Below the pieces are notes generated by a model. It ran no database searches. It was not told the DNA's origin and saw nothing but the letters and a program-made list of their open reading frames with translations. Shown here piece by piece: positions 33,950 to 43,656 of a DNA stretch of 48,748 nt. The stretch spans positions 1-48,748 of the forward strand of contig JAUZRP010000004.1 in the NCBI GenBank assembly GCA_030950395.1, given 5' to 3'. How positions within the stretch are numbered: the stretch's first letter is position 1; each line of letters starts with the position of its first letter. This DNA is from Desulfonauticus sp. Lineage in GTDB: Bacteria > Desulfobacterota > Desulfovibrionia > Desulfovibrionales > Desulfonatronovibrionaceae. The translations under genes and the position numbers were made by a program.

Positions 33950-33982
33950 TTGTCATAAAAATGTAATAAAAATACAATATAT
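33950..33982 (+). promoter_or_regulatory. Pho-box-like 11-nt direct repeats
   Basis: TTGTCATAAAA (33950-33960), ATGTAATAAAA (33961-33971) and ATACAATATAT (33972-33982) are tandem 11-nt units. Pho boxes in enterobacteria are direct repeats of CTGTCAT-A/T-A spaced 11 nt. A further TTGTAATAAAA lies at 34010-34020. The cluster downstream includes a PhoU-like domain gene. In AT-rich DNA this may be chance. Confidence 0.4.
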
Positions 33983-34216: not shown

Positions 34217-35386
34217 ATGAAACAGATGAGCAATCAATTAAAAGCCGTAAATTTAACTTTGGTAAATGATTTGGATCTAAAGCAAATTCCTTTGGATATT
34301 ACTGAAGATGATGTTTATATCTTTGACCAGATAACCAGAATAGATCTTACTGAAGAGCAGATCAAAGAAATTATTGAGCCCCAAAAGATATATCCTCTTC
34401 AACGCAACGTGTTGGCTGTTCATTGGCATCCAGAGCACGTGCCTATTGAATTGGCTTTAAAACGTGTAGAGAAAATGTTTCCCAACAAACAAAAAGAATT
34501 AATTATTCCAACCCAGCACAACATTTTAATGGCTTGTGGAAATTATGCAGGGGTGGAAGTTGATTGTTATTCTCAGGGGTTTAATCAAAAAGTGCAGCTT
34601 CTAGTGCATTTTAGAAAGGACAAAATAGAAAAGGCTGACGTATTTAAATCAATGTTAAAGCATACTTTAAAGTATAGAAGTTCTCAGTTGTTTGAATTTA
34701 TAGATACTATTGTGCGTCCTATAGAGCATCGTTTACAGCAAGCTGCTCAGGAGAGTGGTGCCAGTGAATTAGTAGTAGAGTTTGTTAAGATTTATGTTTT
34801 AAAGATAAAACAGTTGATAGAGCAAAACTATACTTCGCTTCCTTTGAATATGATAAAAAATAGTTTACTAAGCAATTTTTTTGAGTATTTACGTCCAGCT
34901 TATGGGGATTCTCTGATTGATAGAGCTTTATTTTTCTTAAAAGCCGTGAAAAAAAAGGTCAAAGAAAATTTTTCTCTACAATATTTTTATAGAACCTCAG
35001 AAATAATAGAAGAAGTTAGATCTTTGGGCGGATGTATTGTTGTTCCTCATCCAGAGCAGTTTTGGCCTATTTTGTTGGCTGGTTATGATGTAGATGGGTA
35101 TGAGGTCTGGAATCCTCAATCCCAGCGCTATACAGAATTTCTAATCTCTGTAGTTTTGGACAAAAATAAACAATTAGGTTTGTCTAAACGGCCCTTGTTA
35201 ATTTTTATGGGTGATGATACTCACATGGGAGAAAAGGTAAAAGCCATAAAAAACATCTTAAAGGCCTCTAGAGAGATAGGATATCAACCAGCCTGGTATG
35301 ATTTGAGCATTCAAAAAAAATTGGTCTTACATAATATTTGTAAAGAAAAGGTCATAGACGAATATAAACAATTGCTTGATAGCTAA
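34217..35386 (+). CDS. PHP-like metal-dependent hydrolase candidate, GAK neighbourhood
   Basis: 389 residues, no signal peptide or membrane helix. Histidine and aspartate motifs resemble a PHP phosphoesterase in order: VHWHPEH (H69, H71, H74), PTQHN (H101), VVPHPEQFW (H278) and MGDDTHMGEK (D333, D334, H336). PHP domains begin with an HxH motif and end with DxH and bind a metal cluster to hydrolyse phosphoesters. A helical insert (about 125-265) separates the halves. Family assignment is by motif only. ATG at 34217 follows GAGGTAGGTG; ATG 34229 is a possible alternative. It is the first gene of the cluster, 92 nt before an amphi-Trp protein. Confidence 0.65.
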   Translation: MKQMSNQLKAVNLTLVNDLDLKQIPLDITEDDVYIFDQITRIDLTEEQIKEIIEPQKIYPLQRNVLAVHWHPEHVPIELALKRVEKMFPNKQKELIIPTQHNILMACGNYAGVEVDCYSQGFNQKVQLLVHFRKDKIEKADVFKSMLKHTLKYRSSQLFEFIDTIVRPIEHRLQQAAQESGASELVVEFVKIYVLKIKQLIEQNYTSLPLNMIKNSLLSNFFEYLRPAYGDSLIDRALFFLKAVKKKVKENFSLQYFYRTSEIIEEVRSLGGCIVVPHPEQFWPILLAGYDVDGYEVWNPQSQRYTEFLISVVLDKNKQLGLSKRPLLIFMGDDTHMGEKVKAIKNILKASREIGYQPAWYDLSIQKKLVLHNICKEKVIDEYKQLLDS

Positions 35387-35478
35387 ATTGCCAAAAAAAA
35401 GATAAACGTTGGAGTTGCGTTATTGTGCCACAAAAAGGATTAACATAACAGAAAAATAATTTAGAAAACCAAAGGAGA

Positions 35479-35757
35479 GTGTTTATGGCTAAGGAGTTAA
35501 AGTTCGAGTATAAGTCCTTACAAGATGTAAACAGCATTCAAGATTATTTTAAGGCTTTATTAACGTGTTTTGAAAATAAACACATGGTTTTGTCTTCTGC
35601 CAATAAAACTGTAGAGTTTCCCATTGGAGAGCTTATTGAACTTGGTATTAAAGCCAAAAAAAAGGATGGTGAAGTAAAGATTACTATTAAATTAGAATGG
35701 AAAGATAAAAATACTCTGTCCATAGATAAAGAAGATAAATTAAATATTTCTTCTTAA
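35479..35757 (+). CDS. amphi-Trp domain protein A (GAK-type)
   Basis: A 92-residue (90 from ATG 35485) soluble protein. After EFPIGELIELGIKAKKKDGE it ends in an amphipathic strand VKITIKLEWKDKN with a tryptophan, the hallmark of the amphi-Trp domain, a family of small proteins found beside GAK genes. Role unknown; it is a candidate substrate, scaffold or partner. AAAGGAGAG lies before the start, and either of the ATG codons (35479 as GTG/TTG-like, 35485) may be used. The following gene begins 99 nt later. Confidence 0.75.
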   Translation: MFMAKELKFEYKSLQDVNSIQDYFKALLTCFENKHMVLSSANKTVEFPIGELIELGIKAKKKDGEVKITIKLEWKDKNTLSIDKEDKLNISS

Positions 35758-35856
35758 CACCTGAGAAACATCAAAAAATTTTTGTACAAATGCAAGGGGT
35801 ATGGAACGTTTATTTGGCGTGGATTGTGTAGTTAATAATATCAATTGGGGTGTTAA

Positions 35857-37524
35857 ATGTTAAGTGGAAGTTTAGAGGAGATCAAGAATAATTTTGTTTT
35901 TTTGCTAACGGACGTTAAGAGCCAATTTAAATTGGTGTTTGATTTTTTAAGAGAACCAAAGGCTTCTCTTTATGATAAGATAGTTGTTAAAGACGATTAT
36001 ATTGATAATCTTAAAAATATTATAGAAAACAAATGTTTTAGTTCTATTAGTTTATATACTAACGGTGGTATTGATAAAGATAAACTCAATTTTATTCGGG
36101 CAACCCACATTATTGCCATAAACTTAGAACGTATTGCTGATTTTTGTGTGAATATTATTCGGCAGGTAGAGCACCTTTCTCATTATTCTTTTTTACATCC
36201 TTTTGAGTTAGAGAAAAATTTTTCTTTTTTAAGTAAGGGACTGGATAAGATATTGCCTGCCTTAGAGAAGAAGAATTTGGGTTATGCCATAGATATTTGT
36301 CGTTTAGAACACGAAGTAGATAAAATATATGAGGTTATTTTTCATAAGATATTGTCTTTAATGCAACAGAACAATAAGCATGCAGCAGATTATGTTACTA
36401 CTATTTTTATTGCCAGATATTTTGAAAGAATAGGAGATTCTTTGCTGAATATAGGTGAGGCTATTTTGCTTTATATACTTGGAGAAAGAATAAAGATTCA
36501 CCAATTTAGAGCGTTGCAAGAGACTTTGTCTCAGCAGGGTTATAAAGGCTCTGCCTTAGACATTGATTTTCAATCTATTTGGGGAACGCGTTCTGGATGT
36601 AGGATTGGTAGGGTTGGGGGCAATGTTAATGCTGGTGTGGATATAGCTAAAAATAGTATTTTTAAAGAAGGCGTTTTAAAGAAAATTGGACAGGAAAAAC
36701 AAAATTTAGAGAAATGGCAGGAGATATTCCCCGGTTTGGTGCCCAAAGTGCTTAGTTATTACGAGTCAGGTGACGTGGGTTCTATGCTCGTAGAATTTTT
36801 GCCAGGATGTGGTTTTGATGAGCTTATCTTAAATTTGGATCAAGAGATCCTTGATAATGCTTTGTTTGTTTTAACCCAGACCTTAAGTTCTATCTGGGAG
36901 ATCACCTGCCAGAAAGGACCCATTGCTATTGATTATACAAAACAGGCCATAAGCAGGAGTGATGACGTATTTAATATGCATCCAGAATTTCCTCAATCGC
37001 AAATAGCTATAGGTGATTTAGTAATAGAACCTATTTTAGATTTGTTTTATAAATGTCAAAAAATAGAGCAAAAATTAACTGCACCTTTTAGTGTTTTTAT
37101 TCACGGAGATTTTAATACCAATAACATTTTATACGATCATCAGGAACAAAGAGTTTATTTTATAGACGTATATCGCTCTAGACAATATGATTATATTCAA
37201 GACGTATCAGTTTTTTTGGTTTCTATATTCAGGATGCCTATTTTTGATAAAATTATTAGGAATTTTATGAATAATTTAATCAGACAATTTTATGAGTTTG
37301 CTCGTAATTATGCCCTGGAGAAACAGGACAATACGTTTAAAATAAGATTGGCTTTAGCTTTAGCTAGATCGTTTTTTACTTCTACCCGTTTTGAATTAAA
37401 TAGATTTTTTGCTAGAAAGATGTTTATGCGAAGCAGGTATTTGTTGGAATTAATTTTAAGATTTGAAAAAAATATTAATAATTGGGACAAATTTTCTTTT
37501 CCTGAACAGATTTTATATTTTTAA
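35857..37524 (+). CDS. PhoU-like domain fused to aminoglycoside-phosphotransferase-like kinase
   Basis: 555 residues, two halves. Residues 1-210 are helical with PhoU-like segments (AINLERIADFCVNIIRQVEH and FIARYFERIGDSLLNIGEAI, E-R-x-x-D metal-binding patterns). Residues 250-540 resemble choline/aminoglycoside kinases, with VFIHGDFNTNNILYD (H416, D418, N421) and FIDVYRSRQYDY (D437) as catalytic loop and metal site. A phosphotransferase whose activity is sensed or gated by a PhoU-like part is a plausible reading; the substrate is unknown. Position within the GAK-type cluster is shown by the order; the fusion may be a lineage-specific extension. Confidence 0.75.
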   Translation: MLSGSLEEIKNNFVFLLTDVKSQFKLVFDFLREPKASLYDKIVVKDDYIDNLKNIIENKCFSSISLYTNGGIDKDKLNFIRATHIIAINLERIADFCVNIIRQVEHLSHYSFLHPFELEKNFSFLSKGLDKILPALEKKNLGYAIDICRLEHEVDKIYEVIFHKILSLMQQNNKHAADYVTTIFIARYFERIGDSLLNIGEAILLYILGERIKIHQFRALQETLSQQGYKGSALDIDFQSIWGTRSGCRIGRVGGNVNAGVDIAKNSIFKEGVLKKIGQEKQNLEKWQEIFPGLVPKVLSYYESGDVGSMLVEFLPGCGFDELILNLDQEILDNALFVLTQTLSSIWEITCQKGPIAIDYTKQAISRSDDVFNMHPEFPQSQIAIGDLVIEPILDLFYKCQKIEQKLTAPFSVFIHGDFNTNNILYDHQEQRVYFIDVYRSRQYDYIQDVSVFLVSIFRMPIFDKIIRNFMNNLIRQFYEFARNYALEKQDNTFKIRLALALARSFFTSTRFELNRFFARKMFMRSRYLLELILRFEKNINNWDKFSFPEQILYF

Positions 37525-37728
37525 ATTCAACTGCAAAAATTATTTTAAACAGGTAAATATAAGTGTAACGAAGCAGATCAACAATTTAACTGCTTAGAAC
37601 TTGAGAATTAAATCAAAAACGCCGATTTTGGGCTTTTGCAATTATTTTAAGGATTGCTTTTTTAGGCTTGGATCTAACTTAGTTAAAATAAAAGCAAATA
37701 CCTTTAGTTGTTAGAAAGGGGAAGGGAA

Positions 37729-38607
37729 ATGGATAAAAAAATAGGAGTTATTGGTATTCCCAAAAGGTGGTCATCAGAATTATTGGCAGATGCTATTTAC
37801 GATTTAACGGGGTTTAGGCTGCTTGTGGATTTATCTAAGGTAGAAGTAGATTTTGAGGCCAAGAAGGTTTGGTTTGAGGGCGTGGATTTAACAGAATTAG
37901 ATGCGTTGATTATCAAAAAAGTATCTCCTGAATATTCCAGTTATATTTTAGATCGTTTGGAGATATTGTGTTATTTAGAGAGTCTTGGAGTGAAAATTTT
38001 TTCTTCTCCCAAAAATATAGCTGCTATGGTAGATAGACTTAGTTGTACTGTAAAATTACAGCAGGCAGGTATTCCTATGCCTCCCACCACTATTACTGAA
38101 GATTTGGACATCGCAGAGCGTGCTATCAAAAAATATGGGCAAGCAATTTTAAAACCTCTCTACACAAGTAAAGCCAGAGGAATGATTTTGGTCTCCTCTG
38201 AGGACGACATTCGAACCGAGTTAGAAGAGTATAAACAGCACCACCCTGTGTTTTATATCCAAAAAAAGATAGATCTAAATGGGAAAGATTTGGGCGTAGC
38301 TTTTTTAGGTGGAAAGTATTTGGCAACGTATGCGCGTTGTAGAGCGAATAATAGAACTTGGAACACTACTACTGTCAACGGTGGAAAGTACAGTACTTAT
38401 GAGCCTTCTGCTGAAGTTATAGAACTGGCCACCAGAGCTCAAAAACCTTTTGGTCTGGATTTTACGTGTGTGGATGTGGCAGAGACCAGTGAAGGGTTGT
38501 TCGTTTTTGAGGTTTCTGCTTTTGGTGGGTTTAGAGGTCTTTTAGATGGCTGTGGTTTGGATGCAGCCAAGATGTATGCCCAATACGTTTTAGAAAGGAT
38601 AAGATAA
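37729..38607 (+). CDS. GAK-type ATP-grasp enzyme (RimK-like)
   Basis: 292 residues from ATG 37729 (frame open from TTG 37708), preceded by AAAGGGGAAGGG. RimK-like ATP-grasp domain: MVDRLSCTVKLQQAGIPMPP (K and D in ATP binding), QAILKPLYTSKARGMILV, YIQKKIDLNGKDLGVAFLGG, the segment NTTTVNGGKYSTYEPS and FEVSAFGGFRGLLDGCG. ATP-grasp enzymes ligate a carboxylate to an amine or thiol through an acyl-phosphate. It overlaps the next gene by one nt (TAATG), and belongs to the GAK cluster, in which the ATP-grasp gives the G. Confidence 0.88.
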   Translation: MDKKIGVIGIPKRWSSELLADAIYDLTGFRLLVDLSKVEVDFEAKKVWFEGVDLTELDALIIKKVSPEYSSYILDRLEILCYLESLGVKIFSSPKNIAAMVDRLSCTVKLQQAGIPMPPTTITEDLDIAERAIKKYGQAILKPLYTSKARGMILVSSEDDIRTELEEYKQHHPVFYIQKKIDLNGKDLGVAFLGGKYLATYARCRANNRTWNTTTVNGGKYSTYEPSAEVIELATRAQKPFGLDFTCVDVAETSEGLFVFEVSAFGGFRGLLDGCGLDAAKMYAQYVLERIR

Positions 38608-39683
38608 TGAAAAATACAGTTAGCGAGCTTATTCAGGAAATTAGACATAAGTATCCTTGTGAATATGATTTATATCTTGAATTTGGGGGAACGAGTTTTT
38701 GGATAAAGGCCAATGATGGGCAGATCGTAAAGGAACTTGCTTATTATTTTAAGCCTTTTGTGAAATCAGAGCAGGAGTCTTGCGAGATAATAATTACGGT
38801 TCATCAGGCGCCTGTGCCAGAGTTTCCTTTTGAATTTGTGGCCAAGCAGCCAGATCCTGGCAAAAGCAGAATAAAAGAAGAATACGTGGAGCTAGAAGAT
38901 GGAAGGATAGTGAGGAAGCGTTTAACAGGTATGGTTTTTTTATTTGGTAATGGAGAGCATTTGGCCATAGGACCTTGCTTGGAAAATTTGAATCAGGTAA
39001 TAAATTTTATTAACAATCGTTATATAGAGATAAAGTTGCTGGAAGGATGTTTGTTGGGGCATGCAGCAGCCATTTTATGGAAGGGAAAAGGACTTGCGTT
39101 AGCTGGTTTTGCTGGAATGGGCAAATCTACCTTTGCCTTGCACTTAATGAGCAGAGGAGCGGTGTTTGTTAGTAATGATCGCTTGCTGGTGCAGGAGGAA
39201 GAAAGTTCTCTTAAGATGTTTGGAGTTCCCAAGTTACCCAGAATTAATCCCGGGACCGCTTTGAATAATCCCAATTTGCATTCTATCTTATCTGAAGAAG
39301 AAAAAAAGCATTTTTCTTCTTTGCCCACAGAAGAATTGTGGAAGATAGAGCAGAAATACGACGTTTTTATTGATAAGTGTTTTGGTGAGGATAGGTTTGT
39401 CTTAGGTGGACCTATGCATGCTTTGGCTATTTTAAATTGGGATTTTAAGCAAGAGGCTAGAGCTCATCTGGAAGTAGTAGATCTTGCTAAGCGTAGAGAT
39501 TTGCTCCAGGCATTTATGAAGTCTCCTGGTCTTTTCTTTTTACCTCCCAAAGGAAAGCATATAGATTTTTCTGAGCAAAGATATATGGACGTGCTTGCAA
39601 AATGCGTGGTGGTGGAGGTGAAAGGTAAAATTAATTTTGATCTAGCCGTGGATGCTTGTCTAGAATTTTTGGAAAATTTGTAA
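38607..39683 (+). CDS. HprK-related kinase B (GAK-type)
   Basis: 358 residues. The P-loop AGFAGMGKSTFALHL (about 166-180) followed by SRGAVFVSNDRLL resembles the HPr kinase/phosphorylase domain (GAGKS and downstream aspartate). The N-terminal 140 residues are unlike classical HprK. This matches HprK-related kinase B of the GAK system. Classical HprK phosphorylates a serine of HPr; here the target may be another protein of the cluster, which is inference. Coupled to the ATP-grasp by a one-base overlap, and 14 nt before the CofD-like gene. Confidence 0.88.
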   Translation: MKNTVSELIQEIRHKYPCEYDLYLEFGGTSFWIKANDGQIVKELAYYFKPFVKSEQESCEIIITVHQAPVPEFPFEFVAKQPDPGKSRIKEEYVELEDGRIVRKRLTGMVFLFGNGEHLAIGPCLENLNQVINFINNRYIEIKLLEGCLLGHAAAILWKGKGLALAGFAGMGKSTFALHLMSRGAVFVSNDRLLVQEEESSLKMFGVPKLPRINPGTALNNPNLHSILSEEEKKHFSSLPTEELWKIEQKYDVFIDKCFGEDRFVLGGPMHALAILNWDFKQEARAHLEVVDLAKRRDLLQAFMKSPGLFFLPPKGKHIDFSEQRYMDVLAKCVVVEVKGKINFDLAVDACLEFLENL

Positions 39684-39697
39684 GAGAGGGGAGTAAG

Positions 39698-40900
39698 GTG
39701 TCTGTTAGGTCGTCTTTTACTATTTTAAAAAAAGTAAAACTTCCAGATAAGTATAAGTTGGCCAGATTTCAGCGTAGTCCTGAACTAGGACCAAAGATCT
39801 TGTTTTTTAGTGGCGGTAGTGCGTTAAAAAGTGTTTCTGCAGAGTTAATTCATTATTCTCACAATTCTATTCACTTAATTACCCCTTTTGATTCGGGGGG
39901 GAGTTCTGCAGTCTTAAGAAAGGCTTTTAACATGCCAGCTGTGGGTGACCTTAGAAACAGGCTAATGGCTTTGGCTGACAAGTCTTTGTACTTTAATCCA
40001 TCTGTGTTTAAGCTTTTTGCTTATAGATTTCCTAAAGATGAAAGTCAAAATAAGCTAAGAGATGAATTTTACGAAATGGCTTTTGGCAAGCATCCTCTGG
40101 TAGCTGATGTTCCAGATCCTATGCGCAAGATAATTAAACATCACTTGCGTTTTTTCTGGCAACAAATGCCAGAGGATTTTGATTTTCGGGGGGCTAATAT
40201 CGGCAATCTTGTTTTGACTTCTGGCTATTTAGAGTACGAGCGTCACTTTGATCCGGTGTTGTTTATTTATTCTAAGTTAGTAGAAGCCAGAGGGATAGTA
40301 AGGCCGATTGTAAATAAGAATGTTCATTTGGCGGTAAAGTTAGACAATGGGGAAGTGATATGTGGACAGCACAAGATTACGGGCAAAGAAGTGCCGCCTT
40401 TGCGTTCCAAGATAAAGGAGATTTTTTTAACTCAGAGTTTAGACGATTTTGAGCCTATTCGAGTGGAAATACGAGAGAAAATAAAAAGGTTGATAGGAGA
40501 AGCTGAGCTCATTTGTTATCCTATAGGGAGCTTTTATTCTAGTATTATTGCCAATCTTTTGCCTTCTGGCGTGGCTAAGGCTATTGCCAACAATTCTTGT
40601 CCCAAAATTTTTATTCCTAATACAGGAAAGGATCCAGAAGCCATTGGGCTGACTTTAGAGGAGCAGGTGTTAAAATTGATTTATTATCTGCGTCAGGATG
40701 CGCCAGAAAGTTCTCCCGTACAACTACTTAATTTTATTTTAGTGGATGAAGACATTAAGCTTTATCCAGGAGCGCGTTTGAGCAAGTTGGAGCTTATGCG
40801 TTTTGGAGTGGAGATAATACGTTGTAAATTGGTGAGTAAAGAGTCTTATCCATATCTTGATCCAGAGTTGTTGGTTAAGGCTTTGTTATCTATTGTGTAA
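39698..40900 (+). CDS. CofD-like protein, GAK-type
   Basis: 400 residues from GTG 39698, preceded by GAGAGGGGAG; the frame is open from 39656, but that start overlaps the previous gene. FFSGGSALKSVSAELI and LITPFDSGGSSAVLRKAF, AVGDLRNRLMALAD and later VHLAVKLDNGEVICGQH match the CofD/YvcK fold (phosphate transfer on 2-phospholactate-type intermediates in CofD). CofD proper makes coenzyme F420; no other F420 genes are here, so a different substrate is likely. It is the third gene of the probable co-translated set. Confidence 0.87.
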   Translation: MSVRSSFTILKKVKLPDKYKLARFQRSPELGPKILFFSGGSALKSVSAELIHYSHNSIHLITPFDSGGSSAVLRKAFNMPAVGDLRNRLMALADKSLYFNPSVFKLFAYRFPKDESQNKLRDEFYEMAFGKHPLVADVPDPMRKIIKHHLRFFWQQMPEDFDFRGANIGNLVLTSGYLEYERHFDPVLFIYSKLVEARGIVRPIVNKNVHLAVKLDNGEVICGQHKITGKEVPPLRSKIKEIFLTQSLDDFEPIRVEIREKIKRLIGEAELICYPIGSFYSSIIANLLPSGVAKAIANNSCPKIFIPNTGKDPEAIGLTLEEQVLKLIYYLRQDAPESSPVQLLNFILVDEDIKLYPGARLSKLELMRFGVEIIRCKLVSKESYPYLDPELLVKALLSIV

Positions 40901-40963
40901 GGGACGTGGCAACAAGAAAATTTTTAACGTTTTAACTTTAAATAGGGTAAGGAGGTTAAGAAA

Positions 40964-41410
40964 ATGAGAAAAGACAAGATTTCAGTAGAGCAAGTGCTGA
41001 AGTTGGAAAAGGTCATTACTTACTTGGAAGGATTATTAGAAGGTTTTAAAGCAGGTAAAATCGTGGTAGAGCACGAAGGCAAAGTTATGAATTTAAAACC
41101 TGCAGAACTGGTAGAGGTAGAGATAGAGGCCAAACAAAAACCAGATAAAGAAAAGTTTTCTTTGGAGTTGTCCTGGCGTCCAGAGTTAGTGGAAGATGAA
41201 GATCCTGGCCTAAAAATATCCAAAGAAGAGCCTAAAGCCGCTCAACCAGCTGAGCAAGATACTAACACTTGTGGAGCCAAAAAGAATACACCAGCTAAAA
41301 CAACCACCACTACAGGTACTTCTACCTGCTCTGCCAAGTCAACAGTTGCTAAGTCCGCTCAAAAAAACAACACAACCACCTTAGCCAAGACTACTACTCA
41401 GAAAAAGTAA
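40964..41410 (+). CDS. amphi-Trp domain protein B with low-complexity Thr/Lys/Ala tail (GAK-type)
   Basis: 148 residues. The first 80 carry an amphi-Trp domain: LKLEKVITYLEGLLEGFKAG, then LKPAELVEVEIEAKQKPDKE and the amphipathic strand FSLELSWRPEL. The last 60 (about 92-148) are rich in T, K, A with two cysteines in DTNTCGAKKN and TSTCSAKS, and no predicted fold. The tail may be disordered. A TAAGGAGG ribosome binding site precedes the ATG, and a terminator follows 24 nt after the stop. Confidence 0.8.
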   Translation: MRKDKISVEQVLKLEKVITYLEGLLEGFKAGKIVVEHEGKVMNLKPAELVEVEIEAKQKPDKEKFSLELSWRPELVEDEDPGLKISKEEPKAAQPAEQDTNTCGAKKNTPAKTTTTTGTSTCSAKSTVAKSAQKNNTTTLAKTTTQKK

Positions 41411-41434: not shown

Positions 41435-41469
41435 AAAGGCCTGAGGTATACGTGCCTCAGGCCTTTTTT
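41435..41469 (+). terminator. Terminator of the GAK-type operon
   Basis: A perfect 12-bp stem AAAGGCCTGAGG (41435-41446) and CCTCAGGCCTTT (41455-41466) with an 8-nt loop is followed by TTT. It ends the operon 24 nt after the amphi-Trp B gene and before the CRISPR array. Confidence 0.92.
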
Positions 41470-41527: not shown

Positions 41528-42636
41528 CTCTCAATCCTTTTTTCTTCAAGGAACGATTCTGACAAAAGATCCTCATTCTTGGTATAGAGACTATTTAGAA
41601 CGGCTGTCTCAATCCTTTTTTCTTCAAGGAACGATTCTGACACATCTGGGAGACAGGGGACATAATACCGCGTAATGGAACGTCTCAATCCTTTTTTCTT
41701 CAAGGAACGATTCTGACGATAAATTCGTCAAGGAGAGGAAACTTCTCTCTGACGAAGTCTCAATCCTTTTTTCTTCAAGGAACGATTCTGACCATAGGTT
41801 GTGAGGGAGATTACAGATTATCCCTCACGTCTCAATCCTTTTTTCTTCAAGGAACGATTCTGACGCTGTATGGTAAGGTAAAAAAATAAAGGAGGTAAAA
41901 AGAAGTCTCAATCCTTTTTTCTTCAAGGAACGATTCTGACCTTTTCCATTTAACTCCCTTTTTTCTTGGAGATAGCGTGGATTGTCTCAATCCTTTTTTC
42001 TTCAAGGAACGATTCTGACGAGGAGATTATGTTTAAAATTATAAAAAAAGACAATTTTTCGGTCTCAATCCTTTTTTCTTCAAGGAACGATTCTGACAAA
42101 AAAAAGGAGGTAAAAAATGTTTAAAAACTATATTTCCGCGTCTCAATCCTTTTTTCTTCAAGGAACGATTCTGACAAAATGGCAAAGGAAAAGATTTACT
42201 TATCTGTTAAAAAAGTCTCAATCCTTTTTTCTTCAAGGAACGATTCTGACAGTATTAAGGTTAAATCAAATTAAAAAAAGGGGGATGTCTCAATCCTTTT
42301 TTCTTCAAGGAACGATTCTGACTCTTTTCTTTATCGTTTTGAATAGACGCTGATATATCCTCGTCTCAATCCTTTTTTCTTCAAGGAACGATTCTGACTT
42401 TGATGGGATAGAATTCGAATACGCTGAAGAAATAATAGTCTCAATCCTTTTTTCTTCAAGGAACGATTCTGACGTAATTTCTCCTTCAAAAAGGATTCTC
42501 AATCTTAAGTTAGAAGTCAAGTCTCAATCCTTTTTTCTTCAAGGAACGATTCTGACGGCACGGATTTTTACAACAGAAATTAGGCGTAATCCAAAATTAT
42601 GTCTCAATCCTTTTTTCTTCAAGGAACGATTCTGAC
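41528..42636 (-). CRISPR. CRISPR array, 15 repeats of 36 bp and 14 spacers
   Basis: The 36-bp repeat begins GTCTCAATCC and ends CGATTCTGAC on the plus strand. Repeats start at 41528, 41606, 41682, 41757, 41829, 41905, 41984, 42062, 42140, 42215, 42287, 42363, 42438, 42521 and 42601. Only the first differs (C instead of G at position 1). Spacers are 36-47 nt. Read on the minus strand the repeat ends GGATTGAGAC, similar to the ATTGAAAC 8-nt crRNA handles of type I-B and III systems, and the degenerate repeat is at the left end, so the leader is on the right and transcription is inferred to be minus. No cas gene lies in the window. Confidence 0.97.
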
Positions 42637-42969: not shown

Positions 42970-43167
42970 AATAGAATTTTATTCAATACTTACAAAATAA
43001 TAATCAGTCAAGTTTTTACGTGTCCAAATTGTTATTTAAAAGGAATAAAGTTTTCACCATAGGTACGTATAGAGTTTGTTTATTTTGCTCAAAAGTCAGG
43101 ATTTACTTTTGTCCTAAAGTCGTTTAGCAGGGTGGAAGTCCTGATTGTTGATTGTGGGGGATTATTT

Positions 43168-43656
43168 ATGGCCAGGTTGTGGTATAAATTTCAAAGAGTG
43201 TGTCGATATTGGTATTTACGGATATTACGTATTAAATCTTCGCCTGAAAGTGTGGCTCTAGGGCTTGCTATAGGTATTTTTGTGGGATTTTTGCCTATTA
43301 TTCCTTTTCAGACCGTGGTGGCCGTAGCTTTTGCTTTTTTGTTTAGGTCCAGCAAAATTGCTGCTGCTTTAGGCACCTGGATTTCCAATCCTTTGAATGT
43401 GGTCTTTTTTTACTATATGCTTTATGTGGTAGGGAAGATTTTTGTCCCTGTTCAAGCAAAATTAGATTTTTCTCATCTAGCCATGAAAGATCTTATTCAG
43501 GCCGGGTGGGATCTTTTTTTGGCTATGACTGTCGGAGGTTTGGTGTTAGGTATTCCGGCCTCTATTGCTACCTATTTTATTTTTCTAAAGATAATAAGAC
43601 GTTATCGAGAGAAAAAAAGGGAGAAAAGGTATTCCAGGTTTAGAAAAGTATCCTAA
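43168..43656 (+). CDS. DUF2062-domain membrane protein
   Basis: 162 residues from ATG 43168 (frame open from 43132), with TGTGGGGGA upstream. The DUF2062 core reads SSPESVALGLAIGIFVGFLP, then IIPFQTVVAVAFAFLFRSSK and LGTWISNPLNVVFFYYMLY, and it has three to four membrane helices. Function is unknown; DUF2062 proteins are small inner-membrane proteins often near other housekeeping genes. The basic C terminus (RRYREKKREKRYSRFRK) overlaps the start of the next gene by 26 nt if that gene begins at AUU 43631. Confidence 0.88.
   Translation: MARLWYKFQRVCRYWYLRILRIKSSPESVALGLAIGIFVGFLPIIPFQTVVAVAFAFLFRSSKIAAALGTWISNPLNVVFFYYMLYVVGKIFVPVQAKLDFSHLAMKDLIQAGWDLFLAMTVGGLVLGIPASIATYFIFLKIIRRYREKKREKRYSRFRKVS

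Follow-up and report, generated by a model that had tools for sequence, protein, structure and literature searches.

What does a set of genes do in the cell when its families are recorded and its pathway has no name? The GAK gene set, already known through curated NCBIfam models with no function named, poses this question, and we addressed it at a locus of Desulfonauticus sp. (GenBank assembly GCA_030950395.1, contig JAUZRP010000004.1), within a stretch of 48,748 nucleotides that we call the window. At this locus we found an operon of seven genes on the same strand, spanning positions 34217-41410, two genes more than the five that a first, sequence-only reading had described. Our preferred answer, to which we assign a probability of about 0.42, is that the operon encodes a module under the control of PhoB, in which the amphi-Trp proteins serve as adaptors or substrates on or through which the enzymes work. 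Sequence evidence supports the unit of seven genes, the folds and catalytic motifs of its products, a PHO-box signal and a linkage to the pst genes.

The five genes named first, for a GAK ATP-grasp ligase (G), an HprK-related kinase B (K), a CofD-like protein (D) and two amphi-Trp proteins, lie where they had been placed, and in an NCBIfam profile search all four GAK families, amphi-Trp in two adjacent copies, scored far over their cut-offs and stood side by side in the order usual for the GAK system (Table 1). The two additional genes, which the proposed unit of five had left out, encode a PHP-fold protein (P) and a fusion of a PhoU domain with an APH-type kinase (U); neither matched a GAK model here, and both are conserved core members. 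Judged by its sequence, the set of seven is a complete GAK operon and a typical member of the database-defined set. The coupling by one-base overlap or short gaps that had been proposed also held: the G and K genes share base 38607, and from a GTG at 39698, which stands behind a good ribosome-binding site and is the probable start of D, the gap between K and D is ~14 nt, whereas the mechanical open reading frame (ORF) of D, from a TTG at 39656, would instead overlap K. By ribosome-binding site, the better starts are the ATG at 35485 for the first amphi-Trp gene and, for G, the ATG at 37729, its mechanical ORF running from a TTG at 37708. Models of defence systems gave no match. A search of this genome for TIGR04358 (XXXCH) gave no match either, but the controls also stayed silent, which leaves the absence unproven.

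Conservation across genomes supports treating the seven genes as one unit. In a sample of 297 genomes of the phylum, the CofD-like family exceeded its cut-off in 24; 20 genomes had the kinase, 21 had the PHP protein and 16 had both of these, far more than chance would give (hypergeometric p ~8e-19, not corrected for relatedness). We also used the PHP protein to collect 80 named loci, the frequency of the other genes without it being judged from the phylum searches; most of these loci came from sulfate reducers and some from metagenome bins bearing the labels Phycisphaerae, Zixibacteria, Nitrospirae and others. Over these loci the order was near-rigid (PHP, amphi-Trp, PhoU-APH, ATP-grasp, kinase, CofD-like, amphi-Trp), the median intergenic gaps were 16-50 bp, and where the order was broken, the locus was mostly cut off by the end of a contig or had lost its last genes. 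The original grouping was thus borne out both by the profile matches and by the shared neighbourhoods in relatives.

The conserved unit is probably tied to phosphate, a connection that the sequence-only reading did not see and that is our addition to it. The sequence at 33950-33971, TTGTCATAAAAATGTAATAAAA, contains a PHO-box-like site, and none of 200 dinucleotide shuffles reached its score. A PHO box consists of two direct repeats of 11 nt each, and in E. coli its most strongly conserved unit is CTGTCAT (PMC4415409). The pattern YTGTCAYAWAWNTGTCAY, with at most one mismatch, matched twice in the 2.2 Mb genome, at the pstS promoter and at this operon, and its reversed control pattern matched once; as the exact degeneracy was picked after seeing the sites, relatives provide the fairer test. 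Scoring the operon-start regions of relatives on the coding strand with a fixed E. coli-type weight scheme, we found that at 11-bp spacing 23/76 reached p <= 0.05 and 16/76 reached p <= 0.01, compared with 2-12 and 1-6, respectively, at other spacings. Control promoters of the same loci reached the threshold in 17/216 cases (Fisher 5e-6 versus operon starts) and random windows in 4.7%. These results supersede an earlier test of the region upstream of P only, on both strands, in which enrichment was weak (12/78).

The neighbourhood points in the same direction. In 11 of 63 loci, pstS, pstC or pstA lies no more than 10 kb upstream, and in a twelfth a PiT-type phosphate transporter is directly upstream; several loci carry a complete pstSCAB-phoU operon upstream that runs into XXXCH and PHP genes, and the upstream pst and PiT cases are spread, judged by their record titles, over at least three lineages (Desulfobacteraceae, Desulfobulbaceae and Solidesulfovibrio). 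In the genome studied here the pst operon is elsewhere, with phoB, phoR and a normal phoU. On this sequence evidence a phosphate context is highly probable, and it is common to our preferred reading and to its main rival, discussed below; no paper found by our literature search reports a phosphate link of GAK. The PhoU domain in U, together with the pst operon that directly precedes the set in several lineages, could also mean that the PhoU-APH protein and its partners only tune Pst or PhoR signalling, with the other genes serving that regulation. We consider this improbable, because five distinct catalytic folds exceed what a transport regulator needs, the normal phoU is retained in the pst operon of the same genome, and the majority of loci are not adjacent to pst.

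Table 1. Positions in the window of the seven operon genes and of the sequence features associated with them.
Feature	Position	Strand	Match or basis
PHO-box-like site, two 11-bp direct repeats TTGTCATAAAA ATGTAATAAAA	33950..33971	+	245 bp before first gene
P, PHP-fold metal-dependent phosphoesterase-like protein (predicted), 389 aa	34217..35386	+	no Pfam/NCBIfam model
Amphi-Trp protein 1, 90 aa from ATG	35485..35757	+	TIGR04354, 65 bits (cut-off 31)
Tail motif LNISS, amphi-Trp 1	35740..35754	+	[LIVMFAC]x[IV] motif
U, PhoU domain + APH-type kinase fusion, 555 aa	35857..37524	+	TIGR02135, PF01895, PF01636
G, GAK ATP-grasp ligase	37729..38607	+	TIGR04356, 444 bits (cut-off 300)
K, HprK-related kinase B (HprK_rel_B)	38607..39683	+	TIGR04355, 490 bits (cut-off 200)
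D, CofD/YvcK-like protein (CofD_rel_GAK), likely GTG start	39698..40900	+	TIGR04357, 553 bits (cut-off 340)
Amphi-Trp protein 2, long low-complexity tail	40964..41410	+	TIGR04354, 64.5 bits (cut-off 31)
Tail motif LKISKEEP, amphi-Trp 2	41210..41233	+	[LIVMFAC]x[IV] motif
Terminator-like GC-rich hairpin, then T run, directly 3' of last gene	41435..41469	+	seen in sequence

The phosphate context is shared with the main rival explanation, a phosphate-starvation biosynthesis in which the five enzymes would make a phosphorus-sparing small molecule, lipid or envelope polymer and the amphi-Trp proteins would merely act as scaffolds; the same PHO-box and pst evidence applies to it, and we regard it as a real, if minority, possibility. 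Relatives of the APH, PHP and ATP-grasp proteins mostly act on small molecules, which counts in its favour. So does the lipid replacement of phosphate-starved Desulfovibrio alaskensis, in which phospholipids are swapped for glycolipids and ornithine lipids (PMC5193443); a paper on the fitness of D. alaskensis under phosphate limitation leaves the GAK families unmentioned in its main text. Against a purely biosynthetic role, we saw no lipid, polymer or transport gene consistently linked to the loci apart from phosphate uptake, and since each operon encodes two or three amphi-Trp proteins whose tails share a conserved motif, they are likely to be more than passive scaffolds.

This tail motif bears on the preferred reading, action on or through the amphi-Trp proteins. 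The AlphaFold2 (AF2) model of amphi-Trp 1 consists of one helix and four strands, predicted confidently, followed by a disordered or flexible tail; searching the Protein Data Bank (PDB) with the modelled fold returned only a Foldseek E of ~1 and a best VIA Z of 2.7, which does not by itself prove a new fold. About 12 residues past an invariant Trp, outside the folded domain, the tail carries the motif [L/I]-x-I-x. In the form [LIVMFAC]x[IV] it is found in 85/86 amphi-Trp 1 tails (mean of shuffles, 33) and in 44/46 amphi-Trp 2 tails (mean of shuffles, 25), numbers that amount to no formal probability because the sequences are related, though the linker ahead of the motif varies. The consensus in amphi-Trp 2 tails is L-K-I-S-S-E-E-P. 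Since Ser or Thr follows it often but not always (see below), we read the motif as serving docking, perhaps with a site of modification within it. A modification acting on an amphi-Trp protein, as proposed earlier, is plausible, and the conserved tail motif offers a candidate site for it, the reaction itself being inferred. Amphi-Trp proteins are not confined to GAK loci: they exceed the cut-off in 55 of the 297 genomes, over double the count for the kinase, and the neighbours of stand-alone amphi-Trp genes at 20 non-GAK loci showed no common partner.

An amphi-Trp-like domain also occurs in a further protein. This is XXXCH, a frequent companion of GAK that does not define the system: ~50 of 78 other loci encode, immediately before the PHP gene, an XXXCH protein with an amphi-Trp-like N-terminal domain and a cytochrome c'-like C-terminal end bearing KKxCHxxYK; the first heme Cys is missing, the sequences read have no obvious signal peptide, and in one protein (L089) SH replaces CH.

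In the preferred reading, the enzymes for which the amphi-Trp proteins would be adaptors or substrates are K and G. Kinase K has a Walker A P-loop in 14/14 sequences, together with an invariant H152 and D191, the conserved His and Asp of the fold core that it shares with HprK/P, and its PDB profile matches are 2qmh and 1jb1; it differs from HprK/P in that homology was detected only over ~50 residues around the P-loop and in that the operon encodes no HPr protein. Ligase G has the RimK/LysX alpha-glutamate ligases as PDB relatives and resembles the RimK/LysX/MptN group over the full ATP-grasp length, but carries an invariant E-x-S in place of E-x-N as its metal-site motif. The amphi-Trp proteins differ from LysW-type carriers: none (0) has the LysW-like C-terminal EDWGE. 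An ATP-grasp enzyme, an HprK-like kinase and small proteins together also recall the maturation of graspetide-like ribosomal peptides, with the amphi-Trp proteins as precursors, and HprK-like kinases occur in lasso-peptide clusters. We give this idea hardly any credence: the graspetide-type ATP-grasp models scored 37 and 24 bits, far under their cut-offs of 350 and 425, the amphi-Trp proteins are confidently folded and stand alone in many genomes, and no conserved exporter or protease is nearby.

In two genomes the set is divided between two sites and the kinase gene is duplicated, such that PHP, amphi-Trp, PhoU-APH and kinase are at one site and ATP-grasp, kinase and CofD-like at another; this arrangement suggests a pair of sub-modules, each dependent on the kinase. 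At five loci, four of them from bins labelled Phycisphaerae, no CofD-like gene is next to the kinase, an absence that is consistent within the Phycisphaerae-labelled group if these contigs are correctly binned. An apparent fusion of the kinase and CofD genes at one locus (L064) proved to be an assembly gap of N's.

D, named CofD-like, is nearest to YvcK/GlmR. Its PDB profile matches are the YvcK-type structures 2ppv, 2hzb and 2o2z, at 118-125 bits, with no CofD structure among them, and it matched the YvcK model TIGR01826 at 113 bits, below the cut-off of 196; by sequence, D is a relative of YvcK/GlmR (UPF0052) and not a member of TIGR01826. It has the GGSS and GDxRNxLxAL motifs of that family and differs in two respects: an additional segment separates the matched parts, and Ser replaces the second Asp of the GlmR DD pair. 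YvcK/GlmR binds UDP-sugars and is a uridyltransferase (PMC5482804, PMC10128056), described in Listeria as an accessory uridyltransferase (PMC10128056). With YvcK/GlmR nearest, the label of phosphate transferase first given to D is not indicated. That YvcK/GlmR makes UDP-N-acetylglucosamine (UDP-GlcNAc; PMC10128056) counts for the biosynthetic explanation. A pathway to an F420-like cofactor, in which a CofD-like transferase would work with an ATP-grasp glutamate ligase, is very improbable on the same grounds: G has MptN as a relative and CofF as a weak one, and D is distantly related to CofD, but D is nearest to YvcK, and the conserved gene order contains no CofC- or CofE-type gene.

Within the same taxonomic order, seven genomes from a single genus carry a divergent lone CofD-like gene without kinase, PHP or amphi-Trp, flanked in one of them (L054) by genes for MnmE, an exonuclease and a pseudouridine synthase. 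RNA-housekeeping genes neighbour the D-only loci of Desulfovibrio-like genomes, and a PiT gene lies near one of these loci. A single-sequence scan of genome contigs with the CofD-like protein gave no match, its patterns being probably too specific.

The two genes added to the core complete the parts list. The AF2 model of P (pLDDT, the predicted local distance difference test, 81) has PHP enzymes as its best Foldseek matches, and in comparisons by VIA it reached Z 10.7 to 3o0f, 10.0 to RNase AM and 9.6 to 2yb1, the next non-PHP entry being at Z 4.5. Its invariant residues (H69, H71, E73, H101, E114, D116, H131, H278, D333, D334 and H336) include metal ligands of the expected type. On this model, P has a PHP fold and is predicted to be a metal-dependent phosphoesterase-like protein, akin to YciV/RNase AM, BAD_1165 and the Cv/Chromobacterium amidohydrolase in fold (Z ~10) and in a full set of residues of metal-ligand type, but with no Pfam or NCBIfam match and with a helical region at about residues 141-250. 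U matched the PhoU model TIGR02135 at 107 bits, as well as PF01895 and PF01636, and its PDB profile matches are PhoU and APH(3'). The HGDxNxxN and D437 motifs of active APH kinases are invariant in 12/12 aligned sequences, so that U combines a PhoU profile match with an intact Brenner motif; it differs from both families in joining them in one protein, here outside the pst operon.

In three genomes the PHP protein is divergent, the three forming one family, and neither kinase nor CofD-like protein exceeds its cut-off; in one of them (G219) amphi-Trp and PhoU-APH stand beside it. At 12 loci, including L113 (16999-19560, minus strand), we saw a gene with a PHP-like N-terminus, recognized by motif, and a glycosyltransferase C-terminus, often divergent and ~3 kb upstream of the operon.

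How might these parts work together? Substrates, order of steps and output are inferred. PhoB would turn the operon on when phosphate is scarce, and the soluble GAK enzymes would then work on or through the two amphi-Trp adaptors, whose flexible-tail [L/I]xIx would be the docking or modification site. K may phosphorylate the amphi-Trp tail or another protein of the module, and this step could itself sense the phosphate level, since inorganic phosphate (Pi) inhibits the HprK enzymes known so far and can drive them in reverse: the kinase activity of HprK is inhibited by Pi, and firmicute HprK can use Pi for dephosphorylating its substrate (PMC2937029). G would attach an amino acid or similar group, U would link the module to phosphate sensing or transport, P would strip phosphate from the product or a nucleotide, and D would bind a nucleotide sugar, connecting the response with envelope or carbon metabolism.

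Several observations weigh against this model of a PhoB-controlled module. Some genomes carry PHP, amphi-Trp and PhoU-APH without the remaining genes, and Desulfovibrio-like genomes carry D alone, so that the module can be taken apart; 53/76 operon starts are below the box threshold. The HprK/P signature [ILM]E[IV]RG[ILMV]G (taken from PMC2937029) is present in 0/14 kinase sequences, which makes phosphate-driven reversal uncertain, and it may not apply. Ser or Thr follows the tail motif within two residues in only 45/87 amphi-Trp 1 and 33/46 amphi-Trp 2 sequences, which is frequent and not universal; a universal phosphosite is thus unsupported, and docking fits better.

Beyond the operon, the window holds a CRISPR (clustered regularly interspaced short palindromic repeats) array at 41528-42636, right after the operon terminator, with 15 near-identical 36-nt repeats (GTCTCAATCCTTTTTTCTTCAAGGAACGATTCTGAC), and at 43132-43656 a DUF2062 protein, most likely an ordinary membrane protein, which matched BspA, a type IV effector model, below its threshold (76/300 bits).

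Curated models exist for the GAK families, and our search of a library of 5.4 million papers for GAK, amphi-Trp and their TIGR families found no on-topic paper, so that the description of them as recorded, with a pathway not known, still holds. What is new is the pair of extra core genes, the YvcK affinity of D, the tail motif and the phosphate link. In its boldest form, which we consider unlikely, GAK would be a protein-based phosphate switch in which the phosphate-sensitive K, together with G, phosphorylates and ligates the amphi-Trp proteins via their tails, with a new adaptor fold that in anaerobic sulfate reducers would replace or supplement classical Pho control. The position of the seven-gene unit behind a PHO-box-like site gives the nameless GAK pathway a first testable role, and the phosphate context, together with the full parts list including the unmodelled PHP family, makes this orphan gene set testable.

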